Positions 1 through 6,830 of a stretch of DNA of 64,000 nucleotides are shown here, piece after piece. The stretch spans positions 2,218,152-2,282,151 of the forward strand of contig NZ_LMPM01000001.1 in NCBI RefSeq assembly GCF_001423845.1, in the 5' to 3' direction. A program made the translations under genes and the position numbers. Every line of letters starts with the position of its first letter. Within the stretch, counting starts at the first letter, position 1. Below the pieces are notes generated by a model, which worked only from the letters and a program-made list of their open reading frames with translations, was not told the origin of the DNA and made no database searches. Source of the DNA: Sphingomonas sp. Leaf357 (GTDB lineage: Bacteria > Pseudomonadota > Alphaproteobacteria > Sphingomonadales > Sphingomonadaceae).

Positions 1-1593
1 CGTCTCGTCGACCATCTGGCCGATCTCGTCGGCCTTGATCCGGCCGTTGTTGAGCGTGGCGATCATCGTGCCGGAAAGCTTGTCGAGTACGTCGCGCTGG
101 CCGGAAATGACCTGTGCGATCGCCTCGATCGCGTCGTGCGTGCTTTCCGCCGCGGTGACGAGTGCGAGCAGTTCGGGTTTGGCGTCGCTGACCACGCGAC
201 GGCTGCCGGCGATGCGGTCGTCGAGGCGGGCGAGCGCATCGGGCAGGGTCTCGTCGATCTCGCGCGCGGCCGCATCGAGCGCGACGAGCAGATGTTCGGT
301 CGTGTTGATCGTGTTGCGCGCCATGTCATCGCCGGTCTTCAGCGCCTCGGTCATCGCATCGGCCGAGCCGCCGAGCGCGCTGATCGACGCGGCAAGCGTC
401 TGCGTGCGATCGATGCCCTGGCCGTGCAGCGCGTCGAGGCGGCCCGAGACCCGGGTGATGCCGCTGTCGAGCTCGTGGATGATCGCGTCGCTGGCGGTGC
501 GCTGGTCGCTTAACCGGTCGGCGATGCGGTCGATCAGCGATTCGATCGCGGCGATGCGCGTGGACAGCGCCTCGGCGCTGTCATGGCCGACCCGGTCCAG
601 GGCGGCCTGATTGGTGCCGAGCATCGCCAGCATCGCCTCGCCCTGCGCGGCGATGCCCTTGCGCGCTTCGTCCACGGCATCGGCGGTGCGGCCGAGCAGA
701 CCGTCGACCGCATCCGACATCTGGCCGGTGACCTGTTCGAGACGTGCACCGGCCGTCTCGCCGGTCGCCTCCATGCGCGTGATGTGAGCGGCAAGGCGCT
801 GCGCCGCTCCGCTGGCGAGATTGTCCGCCTCGCGACCACGTTCGGCAAGTGCGGACAATTGTGCGTCCAGCGCGGCGGCGTGGGAGGCGGCGGACAGGCC
901 GGTCGCCTCCAGCGACTGGGCGAGGTCGCCGGTTTCCTTGTGCGCGCGCGGCAGTATGGCGGTAAGCACTTCGAGCTTGGCGTGTGCGGCGGCGGCGGCT
1001 TCCGCCAGCGTGCGGGCATGGGCGTCGGTGGCCGTGACCTGATCGGCCAGACCGGTACCGATCGTGGCGAGTCGGCCAGCAGCGCCATCCCCCAGCGCCA
1101 GCAGTGTCGTGACCTGCTCGGCGAGCCGTGCGCGGTTCGCGTCGATGGTTTCCGAAAGCATCGCCACGGTACGCTCTAGGCTGGCAGCCTCCGCGCGCAT
1201 CGCCTGGGCGGTCCTGCCGAACCGGCGCGCTTCCGCCGTGCTGGTTCGGAGCGAGAGCAGCAGCAGGATGCCGATCAGTGCCGGCGGGACGCATAAGGTG
1301 GCGATGAAGCCGGCCAACGCGATCGGCGTGCTGTTGTCGAGCGTCGGCCAGGCAAAATACAGCGCGCCACCGATCCAGCCAAACGAGACCAAGCCGCCCA
1401 GGATCGGCAGGATCAAACCGGTCCAGCTGGAGGATTCGTAGTGATCAATCATCTCGACATCGTATCTGGCGGGGGCGGGCGAGGGTGCGGCGTCTTCAGG
1501 CTCGCCAAGATGTTCCAGCAGCAGTTCGTCGTCCTCCGGCAAAGCATCCGACCGGTCGGATCTGAAATCGACGATGCGAGAACCCCCGTTCAT
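1..1593 (-). CDS. Membrane-anchored coiled-coil protein, MCP-like (3' end outside window)
   Basis: The frame is open from the ATG at 1593 to the window edge, giving 531 codons with no stop, so the gene is truncated by the window. An acidic, proline-rich N-terminal tail of about 55 residues precedes two hydrophobic segments at about residues 55-75 and 85-110. A very long Ala/Glu/Thr-rich helical region follows, with many heptad-like Leu/Ala positions. This resembles the cytoplasmic part of a chemoreceptor or an apolipoprotein-like coiled coil, but the conserved chemoreceptor signalling tip is not visible in the part present. It is divergent from the Hpt-like gene at 1691. Its function is unknown; a scaffold or envelope-spanning structural role is a guess. 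Confidence 0.75.
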   Translation of the reverse strand, partial: MNGGSRIVDFRSDRSDALPEDDELLLEHLGEPEDAAPSPAPARYDVEMIDHYESSSWTGLILPILGGLVSFGWIGGALYFAWPTLDNSTPIALAGFIATLCVPPALIGILLLLSLRTSTAEARRFGRTAQAMRAEAASLERTVAMLSETIDANRARLAEQVTTLLALGDGAAGRLATIGTGLADQVTATDAHARTLAEAAAAAHAKLEVLTAILPRAHKETGDLAQSLEATGLSAASHAAALDAQLSALAERGREADNLASGAAQRLAAHITRMEATGETAGARLEQVTGQMSDAVDGLLGRTADAVDEARKGIAAQGEAMLAMLGTNQAALDRVGHDSAEALSTRIAAIESLIDRIADRLSDQRTASDAIIHELDSGITRVSGRLDALHGQGIDRTQTLAASISALGGSADAMTEALKTGDDMARNTINTTEHLLVALDAAAREIDETLPDALARLDDRIAGSRRVVSDAKPELLALVTAAESTHDAIEAIAQVISGQRDVLDKLSGTMIATLNNGRIKADEIGQMVDET

Positions 1594-1690
1594 CCCCACC
1601 GTTTACCATGAATCGTCGGACAAGGAAGCGAATAGCGAAACTTCGAATTAAGGGATGGGGCATTAAGAGATCGGCCGTGAGGAATGTTGG

Positions 1691-1984
1691 ATGGCTTATG
1701 ATCCCGGTGCAATCGATGCGGCCCTGGCGGCGGCGGTGGGCGACGAACCCGCGCTGATCGCGGAACTGCGCGGCGCGTTTCTTGAGAGCGTGCGGCGTGG
1801 GCTCGAAGGCCTGGAGGCCGCGCAGGGTGACGATCACTGGCAGGCCGCCGCCGCGCGGCTGAAGGGGCTTGCGGCGAGTTTCGGCGCGGTCCGGCTGATG
1901 GCGCTGGCGACCGAGGCCGCGAATGCGCCGGCGCAGGATGTCGGCGTGCTGAAGAGACTGAAGCGCGCGGTGGAGCGGCTCTAG
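1691..1984 (+). CDS. Hpt-like four-helix protein lacking the phosphorylatable histidine
   Basis: A 97-residue, wholly helical protein. Residues 55-66 match the core Hpt motif (HxLKGxxxxxGA) as ARLKGLAASFGA, but the histidine position is Ala55. Histidine phosphotransfer domains relay phosphate between response regulators, and without that His this one cannot do so in the usual way. His49 lies six residues away but is off-register. A GAGG element sits about 8 bases before the ATG. The next gene starts about 65 bases downstream on the same strand. It may be a phosphate-independent binding partner of a response regulator or kinase. Confidence 0.7.
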   Translation: MAYDPGAIDAALAAAVGDEPALIAELRGAFLESVRRGLEGLEAAQGDDHWQAAAARLKGLAASFGAVRLMALATEAANAPAQDVGVLKRLKRAVERL

Positions 1985-2049
1985 CCTCCGTCCGGGGCGA
2001 TCAACCCGGCCTTTGCCAATCGCCGCACGACCGCCTAACACCCGCCGCC

Positions 2050-3231
2050 ATGCTGGCTGGACTGATTTTCGCGACCGACGATGCCGATGACCGGCCGGGC
2101 ATGCTGGCGGCGACGCTGCCGTTCGGCGGGCTGACGCTGATCGAGTTTCAGGCGCGGCTGTTGGTATCGGCAGGCGTAAGCCAGGTGATCGTGGTGGTCG
2201 CGCGGCTGACGCCCGAACTTCTCGGCGCGATCGCGCGGATCGGGCGGCGTGGAGCGTCGGTGGATGTCGTGCGAACGGCGACCGAGGCGGCGGAGAAGTT
2301 GCATCCGCTTGCGCGCGTTCTGGTGGTGGCGGACGGGTTGGTCACGACCAGCGACGTGATGGCGGTGATGGCCGAGGATGGCGGCGATGCGCTGCTCACC
2401 GTGTCCGATCGCGATGCGTCTCCCGGGTTCGAGCGGGTCGGTTCGGAAACCGCGTGGGCGGGGCTGGCGCGGCTGGAGGCGAAGCGGATCGCCGAAGTGG
2501 CGGCGATGCCGAAGGATTACGATTTCCAGTCGACCCTGTTGCGGGTTGCGGCGCAGGCGCGGGCACGGCATATCGCATTGCTGCCCGGCACGGCGGGCGG
2601 GGCGCATGGCATCGAGCGCGACTCGCGCACCCTGGCCGAGCGCGGCAACGTCATTCTCGCCGCTCTGGTCTCGAAGCCCCTGGTGTGGGCGGACCGCTAT
2701 ATCCTCGCTCCGCTGGCGCGGCTGGCGCTGCCGCTATTGATGGCGCGGGTCGTGCCGAGTTGGGCGGTGTGCGCGGCGGGCGTTGTCCTGGGGCTGGCGG
2801 CGCTGGCGGCAATCCTGTTCGGGCTGAGCTGGGGCGGCGTGCTCCTGGCGATCGTGGCGAGCCTGGCGTTCACGATCGGCTCCGCGCTGGCGTGGCTGCG
2901 CGACGAGGAACCGCTGGCGCGGTTCCAGACGGCCGCGATTCCCGGAGTGGCAGCATTGTCGGCCTTACTGATCGGGCACGTCACGAGTGTCGCGCAAGGC
3001 ACGGCGACCGGCTGGACCCTGGCGATCGCGCTGGTCGTGGCGGCTATGCTGATCGAACGGGCGGCGGGCGCGGGTGTGCGGCGACGCTGGTGGGGCAGTC
3101 CGGTCGCGTACCTGCTGACGATCCTGCCGTTCGTTGCGACCGGCCTGCCACTGATCGCCTTGGCGGCGGCAGCGCTATACGCCACCGTCACGCTATCAGC
3201 CGCGATCGAGAGCATTCGCGAAAAGCCTTAG
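2050..3231 (+). CDS. Nucleotidyltransferase-like / degenerate CDP-alcohol transferase-like membrane protein
   Basis: A 393-residue protein. Residues 1-200 look like a sugar-nucleotidyltransferase Rossmann domain, with an early Gly-rich PFGG...TLIEFQ stretch and an AGV..VIVVV strand. From about residue 209 a KP..ADR....P motif leads into five or six hydrophobic helices. That order resembles fused cytidylyltransferase/CDP-alcohol phosphotransferase enzymes such as those making di-myo-inositol phosphate. However, the CDP-alcohol transferase signature (DGxxAR...GxxxDxxxD) is absent; the first loop reads LAWLRDEEPLARF instead. The N-terminal domain also lacks a clear G-x-G-T/S-R-M signature. I infer a pseudo-enzyme or a very divergent enzyme; substrate unknown. 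Confidence 0.55.
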   Translation: MLAGLIFATDDADDRPGMLAATLPFGGLTLIEFQARLLVSAGVSQVIVVVARLTPELLGAIARIGRRGASVDVVRTATEAAEKLHPLARVLVVADGLVTTSDVMAVMAEDGGDALLTVSDRDASPGFERVGSETAWAGLARLEAKRIAEVAAMPKDYDFQSTLLRVAAQARARHIALLPGTAGGAHGIERDSRTLAERGNVILAALVSKPLVWADRYILAPLARLALPLLMARVVPSWAVCAAGVVLGLAALAAILFGLSWGGVLLAIVASLAFTIGSALAWLRDEEPLARFQTAAIPGVAALSALLIGHVTSVAQGTATGWTLAIALVVAAMLIERAAGAGVRRRWWGSPVAYLLTILPFVATGLPLIALAAAALYATVTLSAAIESIREKP

Positions 3232-3243
3232 TCTGGTTTTAAC
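3228..3243 (+). promoter_or_regulatory. Candidate CtrA box (one mismatch)
   Basis: TTAG-N7-TTAAC, one base from the CtrA consensus TTAA-N7-TTAAC. It overlaps the stop codon of the preceding gene and ends 23 bases before the DUF2336 start at 3267. That distance suits activation or repression of a promoter for the DUF2336/kinase pair. Short and AT-rich in a GC-rich genome, so chance matches are uncommon, but it is not proven. Confidence 0.4.
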
Positions 3244-3266
3244 GACAACCGCCTAGACCGGGCGTC

Positions 3267-4406
3267 ATGTCGACAGAAGTTCGCGACCCGGATGATGGAC
3301 CCCTGAAGCGGGCCGACCTGCTGATCGCGCGCGCGGCGGCGGCGGACGAGCGCGCGCATCTGCGGCTGGCGGCAGCGATCGACGATTTCTTCCTGCCCGA
3401 CGATGCTCGGCTCGACGATCGGATGCGTGGCGGTATCGCGGCGGCGCTGACGGCTCTGGTTGCGGGCGTCGAAGGTGCGCTGACCCAGCATGCCGGGCGA
3501 CTGCTCGTCGCGCGCGCCGAACCCGAACTGGCGCTTCGGCTGACCGGCAATCCGGTCTCGGTGCTCGACCGGCTGGTCGCCGCCGGGCTGTTGCGCGATA
3601 GCGAGATGATGCGCGAGTTGATCGCGCGGGTGCGTCAGGACGTGATCGGCGACGCCTTGCCCGCCGCCAGCCCGGCCGAACTGGATGCCCCCAGCCTATT
3701 GACCCGCCTCGCCAATCACGGCGATTCGGTGGTCGCCGGTGCGGCGACCGCGTTGTTCGCGGCGGAAAGTCGCCGGCGTGGCTCGATCGAAGGCGCGATG
3801 CAGACCGATCTGCCGGCCGAGCTGCACCACCGGCTCGTCTGGTGGGTGGCGGCGGCGCTGCGAGAGCGGTGCGAGACGCGGGGCGAGGATCTTGCCCAGG
3901 CCGACCCGACGATCCTAGACCGGGCGCTGGCCGAAGCCGCGGTCCGCAGCCTGGCGGCGCACGACGAAGGCGATCGACTGGAGGCGGCGGCGATGCGGCT
4001 TGCGGTCGCCTATGAGGCCAGCCCGCAGGAGTTGCCGGCCGTATTGGTCGAGGCGCTCGGCGATCGGCGGATCGCTTTGTTCATTGGCGTGTTGTCGCAT
4101 GCGGTGGGTCTGGATTACGAACAGGGGCGCGATATCGTCAGCGATGCGGATGCCGGACGTTTGTGGCTGGTACTGCGCGCGCTGGAGATCGATCGTCAGG
4201 CGATCGCGCGGATCGGACTGGCCTTGTGCGAGGCCGATCCACGTCGTGACCTGGAGGACTTTGCCGATGCGCTCGACGATATCGCCGCAATACCCGCCGA
4301 TCGTGCGCGGGCGGCGTTGGCCCCGTTGAAACTGCATCCGGATTATCGCGCCGCGCTGTCGGCGCTGACTCGCGGCCGCGCTACGGCGCGGGGTCGGCGC
4401 GGGTGA
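3267..4406 (+). CDS. DUF2336 domain protein
   Basis: A 379-residue soluble, helix-rich protein that fits the alphaproteobacterial DUF2336 family, whose members have HEAT-like helical repeats and often sit beside two-component genes. Recognisable features are the Ala/Leu/Arg-rich repeated helices and the central segment GNPVSVLDRLVAAGLL..., typical of the family. No catalytic motif is visible. It overlaps the next gene (PAS kinase-like) by 4 bases (GTGA), implying translational coupling and a shared pathway. It is preceded by a CtrA-like box. The molecular role is not established; a scaffold for the neighbouring kinase-like protein is an inference. Confidence 0.75.
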   Translation: MSTEVRDPDDGPLKRADLLIARAAAADERAHLRLAAAIDDFFLPDDARLDDRMRGGIAAALTALVAGVEGALTQHAGRLLVARAEPELALRLTGNPVSVLDRLVAAGLLRDSEMMRELIARVRQDVIGDALPAASPAELDAPSLLTRLANHGDSVVAGAATALFAAESRRRGSIEGAMQTDLPAELHHRLVWWVAAALRERCETRGEDLAQADPTILDRALAEAAVRSLAAHDEGDRLEAAAMRLAVAYEASPQELPAVLVEALGDRRIALFIGVLSHAVGLDYEQGRDIVSDADAGRLWLVLRALEIDRQAIARIGLALCEADPRRDLEDFADALDDIAAIPADRARAALAPLKLHPDYRAALSALTRGRATARGRRG

Positions 4407-5791
4407 ACGTGGTCGATCCCGGCCTGCCGCCGGTGCGTGGACTGATCGACCCGCAGGGGCGGTTGGTTGAAGCGGAGCAACGCCTGAACGAATTGAACGC
4501 ACGCGCCGGCGGAGCGATCGGCCAGGCGGTCGCGATCCCACAGATCGCGACGCTCTCACGGCTGGCGCAGCGGCTGGGCATCCTTATCTCGCGCGCCGTG
4601 GTGGCCGGAGACGGCGACGGCGATGTGGACCTGTGGGTGAAGGCCGATCCGACGGCACAGGGCGTGCGGCTGGAGATCACCGGCTGGCGGCTGCGAGCGG
4701 CCTGGCGGCCAGGCGCGTCGGACGATGAACGCGACACGGATTTCCTGCGCAGCGGCGCGGATTGGCTGTGGGAATCGGACGCATCGTTGCGTCTGACGTT
4801 CCTGTCGGCGGGCGCGGGCGCGCGTCATGGTTTCGACGTCGACGAGATGCTCGGCAAGCCGCTGACCGGCCTCTTCGCGCTCGGCGAGGACAAGGAAGGA
4901 GCGTTCCCGATCCTCGGCGGGCTCGCGATGCGACAGCGGTTCGACGACCAGCGCGCGACGCTGCGGCCGACCGGGCAGGCCGTGCGGCTCGCGGCGACGC
5001 CGCGCACCGACCGAATGGGCGTATTCGCCGGCTTTGTCGGCGCGGTGCATATGATCGCACCGCAACCGACCCGGTCCGAACCGGCGGCCGGGATCGTCGA
5101 GGCACTGTCGGGCGATTTCGCCGCACGGCTCGATGCGGCCCTGCGCTTTCCACTCGGGCGGATCATCGCCAATGCCGACAGCATCAATGCGCAGTCGGAA
5201 GGCCCGCTACGGCAGGACTATGCCGATTACGCTGCCGACATCGCCAGTGCCGGCCGGCATCTGATGGGGCTGGTCGATGATCTGGTCGATCTGCAGGCGA
5301 TCGAGCGACCCGATTTCACCGTCGCTTCCGAAGCGATCGACCTGGCCGACGTGTCGCGCCGCGCCGCCGGCCTTCTGGGGTTGCGCGCGGGCGAGGCCAG
5401 CGTGCGGATCGACAAGCCGGCACCGGAGGATGCATTGCTTGCGACCGGCGAATTCCGTCGCGCGTTGCAGGTGCTGGTCAACCTGATCGGCAACGCGGTG
5501 CGCTATTCGCCCGAGGGCGGAATGGTGTGGATCCGCACCGAACGCGAGGGCGAGGTGGCGGCGGTGATCGTCGCCGATCAGGGCAAGGGCATCGCGATCG
5601 AGGATCAGGAACGGATCTTCGAGAAGTTCGAGCGCGTCGATGCACGCGAGCCGGGCGGCAACGGGCTGGGCCTGTACATCGCCCGGCGCTTGGCGCGGGC
5701 GATGGGCGGGGACATTACCCTAGACAGCGCGCCGGGGCAGGGCGCGCGGTTCGTGTTCACGCTGCCGTACGGGGCGCCTGCTCGGGCTTAG
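4403..5791 (+). CDS. PAS sensor kinase-like protein with His-to-Ala H-box
   Basis: 462 residues with a GTG start overlapping the DUF2336 stop. Order: N-terminal region, PAS domain at about 112-225, dimerisation/H-box region at about 240-300, HATPase at about 345-460. The ATPase looks intact: N-box NLIGNAVRYSP, G1 ADQGKGI and G2 GNGLGLYIARRLA. The H-box, normally HELRTPL, reads AALRFPL, so the phosphoacceptor histidine is Ala245. No transmembrane segment is evident. It may bind ATP without autophosphorylating, or act as an allosteric partner, as DivL does with Tyr in place of His. Its 3' end overlaps the convergent permease gene by 35 bases. Confidence 0.8.
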   Translation: MNVVDPGLPPVRGLIDPQGRLVEAEQRLNELNARAGGAIGQAVAIPQIATLSRLAQRLGILISRAVVAGDGDGDVDLWVKADPTAQGVRLEITGWRLRAAWRPGASDDERDTDFLRSGADWLWESDASLRLTFLSAGAGARHGFDVDEMLGKPLTGLFALGEDKEGAFPILGGLAMRQRFDDQRATLRPTGQAVRLAATPRTDRMGVFAGFVGAVHMIAPQPTRSEPAAGIVEALSGDFAARLDAALRFPLGRIIANADSINAQSEGPLRQDYADYAADIASAGRHLMGLVDDLVDLQAIERPDFTVASEAIDLADVSRRAAGLLGLRAGEASVRIDKPAPEDALLATGEFRRALQVLVNLIGNAVRYSPEGGMVWIRTEREGEVAAVIVADQGKGIAIEDQERIFEKFERVDAREPGGNGLGLYIARRLARAMGGDITLDSAPGQGARFVFTLPYGAPARA

Positions 5792-6830
5792 CCGGTTCGA
5801 GCCATTCCTGCAGGACCAGCAGCAGGGCGGCCATGATCACCGGGCCGACGAACAGCCCGACCAATCCCAACTCGGCCAGCCCGCCGAACGCGCCGATCAT
5901 CGCCAGCAGGAACGGTAATTCGACCGCGCTGCCGATCACCGAAGGCTGCACGACATTGTCGCCGATCGTCATGACCGTCGCCCCGAACGCGAAGAGCACG
6001 GCGCCCGCGAGGACATGCCCGGTCGAGAGCAGGATCAGGCTGGCGAGGCCGAAGATCAGCCACGCGCCGAACGGGATCAGCGCGAGAATGACCGTGAAGG
6101 TGGCGAACAGCAGAGGCTGGGGCACGCCGGCGACGGCGTAGCCGATGCCGATGATGCCGCCCTCGACCACGGAGACGAGAATGGTGCCATTGACGGTGGC
6201 CCGGACCGCGCCGGTCATTCGGGACAGGAATTCTCCCCCGAAAGCGCCGAACATGCCGATGAAGATCGTGCGCGCCTTCACGGCGATCGTCCGGCCGCTG
6301 GCGAGCAGCGAAACCAAGGCGAGCAAAGTCACCAGGAACAGTGCCGATTCGCGTGCCACCTCGCCGCCGATCGAGCGGGTCCAGCCCAGGATCGATCCCG
6401 CGCTGAGCGTGCCGAGCAGGGCATTGGCCGCCTGCGGGTTGGCGACATGCTCCTGCCAATAGGTGGCCACGCGCGCGCCGATCAGCGGTATGCCGGGCAG
6501 CCATGAGGGAGCGGCGATGCCGAACTGTTGCGCGTGTTTCAGCCAGGCGATCGCGCCGTCGCTTTCCTGTGCCAGCGTGACTGCGGCGAGCGAGAGCGGC
6601 AGGACGACCAGCAATGCGGTGGCCAGGGTGAAGCCGAGCGCGATCGTGCCGGGATGTCGAGGAAAGCGCTTGATGGCGCGGCGATATAGCGGCCATTCGG
6701 CGATCGCGAGGACCGCGGCCCAGGCGATCGGGGTGAGGAATTCGAGCGCCATCCACAAGGCGAGCAAAACGATCGCAATGGTCAGCACGATCTGCCGCTG
6801 GTGAACGCCGTTGGATCGGGGATTGGACAT
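5757..6830 (-). CDS. AI-2E family (PerM-like) permease
   Basis: A 357-residue inner-membrane protein with about eight hydrophobic segments: a pair near the N-terminus, a long soluble stretch, then a C-terminal bundle. The family hallmark near the C-terminus, GDNVVQPSVIG followed by PFLLAMIGAFGGLAELGLVGLFVGPVI, is clear. Members export small molecules or ions (AI-2, Na+ in some); the substrate cannot be read from sequence. The gene is convergent with the PAS kinase-like gene and their 3' ends overlap by 35 bases. Start ATG at 6830. Confidence 0.88.
   Translation of the reverse strand: MSNPRSNGVHQRQIVLTIAIVLLALWMALEFLTPIAWAAVLAIAEWPLYRRAIKRFPRHPGTIALGFTLATALLVVLPLSLAAVTLAQESDGAIAWLKHAQQFGIAAPSWLPGIPLIGARVATYWQEHVANPQAANALLGTLSAGSILGWTRSIGGEVARESALFLVTLLALVSLLASGRTIAVKARTIFIGMFGAFGGEFLSRMTGAVRATVNGTILVSVVEGGIIGIGYAVAGVPQPLLFATFTVILALIPFGAWLIFGLASLILLSTGHVLAGAVLFAFGATVMTIGDNVVQPSVIGSAVELPFLLAMIGAFGGLAELGLVGLFVGPVIMAALLLVLQEWLEPAKPEQAPRTAA

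Follow-up and report, generated by a model that had tools for sequence, protein, structure and literature searches.

Two phosphorelay homologues without phosphorylation sites at a conserved locus of Sphingomonas-type bacteria

Layout of the locus

The window, a stretch of 64,000 nucleotides from Sphingomonas sp. Leaf357 (assembly GCF_001423845.1, contig NZ_LMPM01000001.1, positions 2,218,152 to 2,282,151), opens with the five-gene locus studied here. An Hpt-like protein (referred to below as Hpt), a membrane pseudo-enzyme (NTC), a DUF2336 protein and a histidine kinase homologue (HK) are encoded one after another, and a coiled-coil protein (CC) is encoded divergently from them (Table 1). The genes, the orientation of CC included, are those described in a first-pass annotation of this DNA, and the alanine codons that it had reported at the phosphorylation sites, Ala55 in Hpt and Ala245 in HK, are both GCG and were confirmed. 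The overlap that it had seen between DUF2336 and HK is likewise real, with four bases shared (4403-4406); the same overlap occurs in 28 of the 87 loci having both genes, start codons being picked by our own rule. It had also spoken of a PAS kinase; the model, as read by eye, contains two PAS-like domains. Only the DHp-CA part of the HK model scored well against the PDB, and whole-chain alignments were poor because the domains are free to move. CC has a full length of 775 aa, with its C-terminal part lying before the start of the window.

HK was searched for in 119 genomes of the family (Sphingomonadaceae), and 97 gave a match at E 1e-30 or better. The family survey set consists of 96 fetched loci and the window's own locus, and profiles were built from these. 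The order CC< Hpt> NTC> DUF2336> HK>, for which conservation had been anticipated, is complete in 59 of the 97 loci; 13 lack only the adjacent Hpt, three only DUF2336 and three only NTC, while 19 have fewer genes. For counts of orthologues, 95 of the 97 matches were combined with a truncated HK at the NTC locus of genome G005, giving 96. The matches in G022 and G045 were excluded as His-bearing kinases (164-175 bits) in stretches from which the other four genes are absent, and G005 was kept apart for its truncated HK and long branch. A second sample, the named loci, comprises the best 80 of 575 relatives and may overlap in species with the family genomes; L219, L277 and L278 (61 bits or less) were excluded from its HK count. 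Beyond the family, weaker Hpt matches were found in 25 genomes from other families of the order, nine of which, from three families, were fetched.

Table 1. Features of the locus in the window, and receiver genes in related loci
Feature	Position	Strand	Basis or remark
CC, coiled-coil protein with N-terminal hydrophobic stretches	1..1599	-	membrane anchoring read from sequence
Pseudo-Hpt, Hpt-like without phosphorylatable His	1691..1984	+	Pfam Hpt 25.0 bits, cut-off 24.6
Hpt phosphorylation-site codon 55, GCG = Ala	1853..1855	+	
NTC, membrane pseudo-enzyme, IPCT-DIPPS / CDP-alcohol phosphotransferase fold, no full catalytic signature	2050..3231	+	
DUF2336 protein	3267..4406	+	Pfam PF10098 44.4 bits, cut-off 34.6
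Pseudo-HK, PAS-PAS-DHp-CA histidine kinase homologue without phosphoacceptor His	4403..5791	+	
HK predicted PAS-like domain 1, residues ~10-100	4430..4702	+	model secondary structure; PAS assigned by eye
HK predicted PAS domain 2, residues ~107-217	4721..5053	+	model; weak PAS_9 match, E 0.19
HK DHp helices, residues ~231-301, degraded H-box RLDAALRFP	5093..5305	+	HisKA 20.4 bits (cut-off 26.9); model
HK codon 245, GCG = Ala, at phosphoacceptor His position	5135..5137	+	
HK HATPase_c (CA) domain with N, G1, F, G2 residues	5456..5770	+	102.1 bits
Receiver loci	L327:5970-6518, L322:6054-6602, L324:5939-6487, L323:4886-5434, L195:3358-3903		

The kinase homologue

Among the 96 HK orthologues, a canonical SHELRTP box is found in six (G007, G012, G040, G052, G056 and G085), Thr stands at the site in G005, and the box is degraded in the remaining 89. 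The residues that replace the phosphoacceptor in these 89 derived HKs are varied: Pro in 53, Ala in nine, Arg in nine, Gln in four, Lys in three, Glu, His and Asp in two each, and five others once each. His is therefore absent from 87/89, the Glu that should follow it (Glu+1) from 89/89, and Thr at +4 is retained in only 3/89, while all three residues are present in each of the 20 canonical rows. The two derived HKs with His come from one genus (G024 and G109). The named records agree: an HK orthologue lies in the stretch for 52 of the 80 loci, and 51 of the 52 lack His (Lys 18, Arg 16, Gln 9, Thr 5, Gly 2, Ser 1, His 1). The next Glu is missing in all three His-bearing cases, the two from one genus and the named one. 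Tyr was seen at the site in none of the 110 family and outgroup rows, nor in the 52 named orthologues. Single orthologues with His at the site in an otherwise degraded context occur for both proteins, the HK of L210 and the Hpt of L048 (G034).

A possible objection is that the six His-bearing HKs might be unrelated paralogues. This was rejected, as the family profile gives them 278-304 bits and each has a DUF2336 gene in the same stretch.

The first-pass annotation had described the ATPase as intact, which the clear HATPase_c domain of Table 1 and the alignment bear out. Seven ATP-site residues (N364, D392, G394, F406, G419, G421 and G423) are each present in 89/89 derived HKs, and N360 and G396 each in 88/89. 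Judged from these alignments, the acceptor site has been released while the ATP-site residues are held. Elsewhere in the protein R253 has been fixed anew (84/89 derived rows, versus Ala in 19/20 canonical rows) and several residues of DHp helix 2 are nearly invariant. The N-terminal part is also covered in 88/89 derived HKs, the HK of G031 being the C-terminal part only. In HK no conserved replacement His was found: the only near-invariant one, H286, is also present in 6/6 His-bearing relatives.

The Hpt-like protein

The same picture is seen in Hpt, where the site of the 73 derived proteins is occupied by Leu (20), Met (15), Gln (14), Trp (12), Ala (3), Arg (2) and seven residues seen once each, among which is the His of G034. 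His is thus missing in 72/73 derived Hpts and retained in 13/13 basal and outgroup Hpts examined, namely those of the nine fetched genomes from other families, whose Hpts adjoin CC in 8/9 loci, and of four family members (G005, G040, G056 and G085). The readable Hpts of the named records have His in 0/57. Residues near the old site are largely retained in derived rows (R56 in 72/73, K58 in 48/73 and G59 in 60/73), and F64 is newly fixed in 72/73, the canonical rows having Ile or Val. No substitute His is conserved in Hpt, the sole His column above 30% being position 65 (37/73); a conserved replacement His was rejected for both proteins. Two further observations concern single residues or genomes. 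Cys46 is found in 56/73 derived Hpts, the window's own Hpt having Gly (codon 1826-1828), and in G007 (L333/L334), a genome with 7% contamination, Hpt is apparently split across two reading frames.

These counts bear on two expectations raised by the first-pass annotation. Conservation of Ala at both sites, which it had foreseen, was not borne out: 13 different residues occur at each site, counting His, with Pro the commonest in HK and Leu in Hpt. Most relatives carrying His, an outcome named beforehand as counting against the idea, is equally not what is seen, as the figures of 87/89 HKs and 72/73 Hpts without it make plain.

Evolutionary history of the losses

According to extracts of a published survey, the phosphorylated His is missing in 0.9% of HisKA domains (722/76,471) and 0.9% of Hpt domains (90/10,312) (PMC12632262). 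That both should be lost at a single conserved locus is well outside what chance would give. An HK tree from which the H-box columns had been removed places the 90 rows that lack the canonical box on one side of a branch supported at 100/92, and the other side holds the six His-bearing family orthologues together with 14 class outgroups. The loss of the box is a single change in 200/200 sampled bootstrap trees. A tree of CC (from which G010, G012, G070 and G116 were left out as too short, and G007 as having no CC in the fetched stretch) contains a clade of 93 rows at 100/100 which includes all the derived Hpts and, apart from that of G005, all the derived HKs; G040, G052, G056, G085 and G005 fall outside it. 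Within the limits of these trees, one and the same stem branch of the Sphingomonas-type clade carries the His losses of both HK and Hpt. The loss of His is essentially one evolutionary event (plus G005), not ninety. As read from the alignments and trees, HK and Hpt both descend from proteins with intact phosphorylation sites.

Linked fate and selection

In the 104 genomes of the CC tree (G117 being excluded from co-loss counts since its contig ends within HK), HK is absent from 15, and Hpt is then absent from 15/15, both in the fetched stretch and by genome-wide search. DUF2336, looked for in the fetched stretches, was not found in any of the 15. Among the 89 genomes that have HK, 15 lack Hpt and seven lack DUF2336 in the fetched stretches. 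A plain Fisher test for co-absence of HK and Hpt gives p 3e-10, but the rows are related. A further 20 stretches were selected for having NTC, so that its presence there is by choice; 17 of them come from genomes without an HK match, and in 15 of the 17 only CC and NTC are left, with no Hpt, DUF2336 or HK (one of the 15, L199, ends soon after NTC). With Hpt and the DUF2336-HK pair gone and NTC kept, losses are needed on both sides of NTC. The changes counted on the tree are seven for HK, 16 for Hpt and 11 for DUF2336, as judged in the fetched stretches.

The genes had been expected to carry marks of decay if they were dying, and as a group they are not. The ratio of nonsynonymous to synonymous substitution rates (dN/dS) was computed for each gene on the 45 closest pairs of named sequences (44 of which could be used for Hpt); these pairs have rows in common and are not independent of one another. 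The median ratio is 0.043 for CC, 0.071 for NTC, 0.072 for HK, 0.077 for DUF2336 and 0.150 for Hpt. A distribution independent of neighbours, also raised in advance, is not what is seen: the genes are linked, in full order at most loci and in co-absence, though some genomes carry parts at separate places. Purifying selection, invariance of the ATP site, a conserved neighbourhood and joint absence of HK and Hpt are thus features of this locus.

NTC, DUF2336 and CC

NTC has no Pfam match above the cut-off, although its fold is matched. With search patterns of our own for the signature strings, the full CDP-alcohol signature was found in 0/85 family members and a GxGTRM-type nucleotide motif in 0/85, and a loose DGxxAR string occurs in 6/85 without the rest. 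NTC thereby differs from the IPCT-DIPPS and AF2299 CDP-alcohol phosphotransferases in having neither full catalytic signature (85/85). Because both signatures are missing throughout, NTC is by these motifs an old pseudo-enzyme, not a fresh loss. The first-pass annotation had seen several losses together, and this holds for HK and Hpt, but the counting of NTC in the same event is not supported.

For DUF2336, a sequence search of the PDB found nothing. In six of the 14 best class-level loci (L169, L171, L172, L174, L176 and L181) the DUF2336 gene immediately precedes that of a His-bearing PAS kinase, and in four of the six a second, mostly weak DUF2336 match then follows. The gene pair in these other Alphaproteobacteria is the same as here, with the difference that the phosphoacceptor box is intact there and lost here.

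CC has no Pfam family above the cut-off. It resembles a TipN-type polar scaffold, a resemblance of layout only. The PDB sequence search gave no relative of the CC C-terminus. Of 289 class genomes, 56 have matches to the CC profile (L289-L308 among them), including four genomes from the same family. The portions consulted of a paper on polar scaffolds did not settle the identity of CC (PMC10127582).

The receiver and flanking genes

In nine outgroup loci, as well as in G040 and G056, a receiver gene adjoins Hpt; in G052 it adjoins CC, Hpt being undetected there. Its phosphorylation position (CheY Asp57 by alignment) is Asn in 12/12 of these loci. Only 4/119 genomes of the family have the receiver (G007, G040, G052 and G056), and these are the first-branching HK group. 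The receiver is conserved, with 62-66% identity between that of G056 and those of four genomes from other families. In a wider set of 35 loci, five from the family, 17 of the 27 readable sites are Asn and 10 are Asp. The distribution suggests an order of events in which a receiver without Asp came first, the receiver was then lost, and the His of HK and Hpt were lost afterwards. For comparison, Osp is described in the available part of its source as a receiver-like inhibitor in which Asp is retained (PMC9430884).

Downstream of the locus, an AI-2E family transporter gene (5757-6830, minus strand) runs towards HK and shares 35 bases with the 3' end of that gene. Upstream of CC, the stretch L038:44-9070 holds complex I genes and genes for biotin ligase, type III pantothenate kinase, RNase J and DUF1467.

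A relay without phosphate transfer?

These data give good support to a conserved protein set that lacks the customary phosphorylation sites, and they suggest that an old phosphate relay has been rebuilt to work without phosphate transfer. The first-pass annotation had proposed a phosphorylation-free signalling or scaffolding module; the set itself stands, but the conservation of Ala and the inclusion of NTC among the losses do not. We give slightly better than an even chance to the reading that the locus is a decatalysed phosphorelay, with HK and Hpt derived from canonical ancestors, that has been kept as a phosphotransfer-free docking module. Retention in that capacity, and the scaffolding role it implies, we infer; so, too, ATP binding by HK, protein contacts, tethering and output belong to a proposed working. 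In it, the shape of the HK dimer would be governed jointly by a signal at the PAS domains and by ATP binding at the intact CA domain. Depending on that shape, a partner might dock onto the DHp bundle and the pseudo-Hpt, both of which retain their fold and much of the sequence near the former site; this partner may be a response regulator from a different pathway, or the two may bind one another. The complex would be tethered by DUF2336, whose reading frame often overlaps that of HK, and by NTC and CC as membrane proteins. More tentatively, and in our estimate possible without being probable, the whole may have come about stepwise: the Asn receiver would have been lost, the His of HK and Hpt lost on one branch, and the remainder rebuilt as an ATP-gated, phosphate-free membrane complex.

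Several points weigh against the docking module as set out. In G005, HK lacks His (Thr) and yet Hpt keeps it; in the HK tree a very long branch joins this HK to the derived rows, whereas the CC tree places G005 beside G085, a position which would imply a second, separate loss of the HK His. The bootstraps of both trees had not settled, and the CC tree, which does not contain G007 and G012, is a one-protein stand-in for a species tree. Position 245 of HK is not unusually variable (entropy rank 200/447, and 22/70 within DHp, with Pro in 53/89), so that "free drift" would be too strong a wording. Once corrected for the tree, the link between HK and Hpt is non-significant (median p 0.125 from six pairs, with 0.0 opposite pairs). 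The parts are separable, since DUF2336, NTC or the adjacent Hpt alone can be missing, as counted above, and Hpt lies beside CC and away from HK in G091 (of the same genus), G011, G042, G044, G075, G081 and G118. Finally, dN/dS of Hpt is the highest of the five genes.

The retained Hpt fold with the residues near its old His, and the nearly invariant residues of DHp helix 2, could also be read as the marks of a decoy, in which pseudo-HK and pseudo-Hpt bind the response regulators of working phosphorelays, pass no phosphate and so damp them. This alternative is modelled on the plant pseudo-Hpt AHP6, and plant pseudo-Hpts are known from the literature. It seems to us unlikely, as a decoy has no need of an ATP site, yet seven residues of that site are in every derived HK; nor was a response regulator gene found at the locus, the ancestral neighbouring receiver being missing from 115/119 family genomes.

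The complete and near-invariant CA motifs raise a different thought, that HK remains a kinase in another guise and that its CA domain phosphorylates some other residue or, within a mixed dimer, the His of a different kinase. We consider this improbable given that neither HK nor Hpt has a conserved replacement His (His columns alone being considered). Phosphatase action is also less likely, with Thr+4, the residue that serves it, in 3/89 and Asn there in none.

A shade less probable still is that two separate signalling remnants, the pair of HK and DUF2336 and the pair of Hpt and CC, are neighbours and not partners, side by side by chance. In basal genomes the two pairs are indeed apart: G040 and G056 have them on separate contigs, and in G052 about 6 kb lie between DUF2336 and NTC. 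The seven derived genomes named above are split too. Against chance neighbourhood stand the mapping of the His losses to one branch and the absence of Hpt from all 15 HK-less genomes of the CC tree, though the intervening NTC is kept. That the genes are simply on their way out, as their several losses and the incomplete HKs of G031 and G005 might hint, is very improbable with a median dN/dS far under 1 in all five, invariant ATP-site residues and newly fixed ones.

Should the stepwise rebuilding prove correct, a pseudo-kinase and a pseudo-Hpt would be acting jointly in bacteria, in a complex that most of the sampled family still carries. Versions with intact sites survive in living relatives, and the ATP-site residues of HK are invariant in the derived ones. 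With derived and basal members both alive, the role of a two-component protein without phosphotransfer is directly testable by comparison.

Comparison with known systems

The open-licence literature searched, outside which most subscription papers lie, holds no description of the locus and no mention of DUF2336, and a search of the same scope for pseudokinases and pseudo-Hpts gave only papers on DivL-type proteins, on plants or on unrelated subjects. Two Caulobacter proteins, HmrX and HmrB, were also considered as possible relatives (PMC11481889).

DivL had been offered as a precedent, and rightly so as far as the type of protein goes, but HK does not itself belong with DivL, since Tyr was not seen at the HK site and a separate DivL-like frame exists. 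HK was accordingly rejected as the DivL of this genome: a 770-residue frame with MSYELRTPLTSI lies at G000:C1:2078198, and from its motif MSYELRTP that frame is probably DivL. HK matches the DivL structure 4q20 by profile at 7.2e-28 and by fold at TMt 0.72-0.74 over ~230 columns. Like HK, DivL of Caulobacter is a PAS kinase homologue with a kinase fold and no phosphoacceptor His; it has Tyr at the site, with one Ala case cited, whereas HK has many residues and no Tyr, and the excerpts of its source mention no paired pseudo-Hpt, unlike the one encoded near HK (PMC4211667). DivL is reported in the same excerpts to bind an ATP analogue weakly and to be able to act without kinase activity (PMC4211667), and by analogy it is the best precedent for how HK might work.

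Hpt finds its likeness in the plant pseudo-Hpts, of which AHP6 has the Hpt fold without His. AHP6 is a protein of cytokinin signalling; Hpt here is bacterial and encoded near a pseudo-kinase. Pseudo-kinases of the DivL type and plant pseudo-Hpts are known singly, and at this locus a kinase and an Hpt lost their sites on what is apparently the same stem branch.

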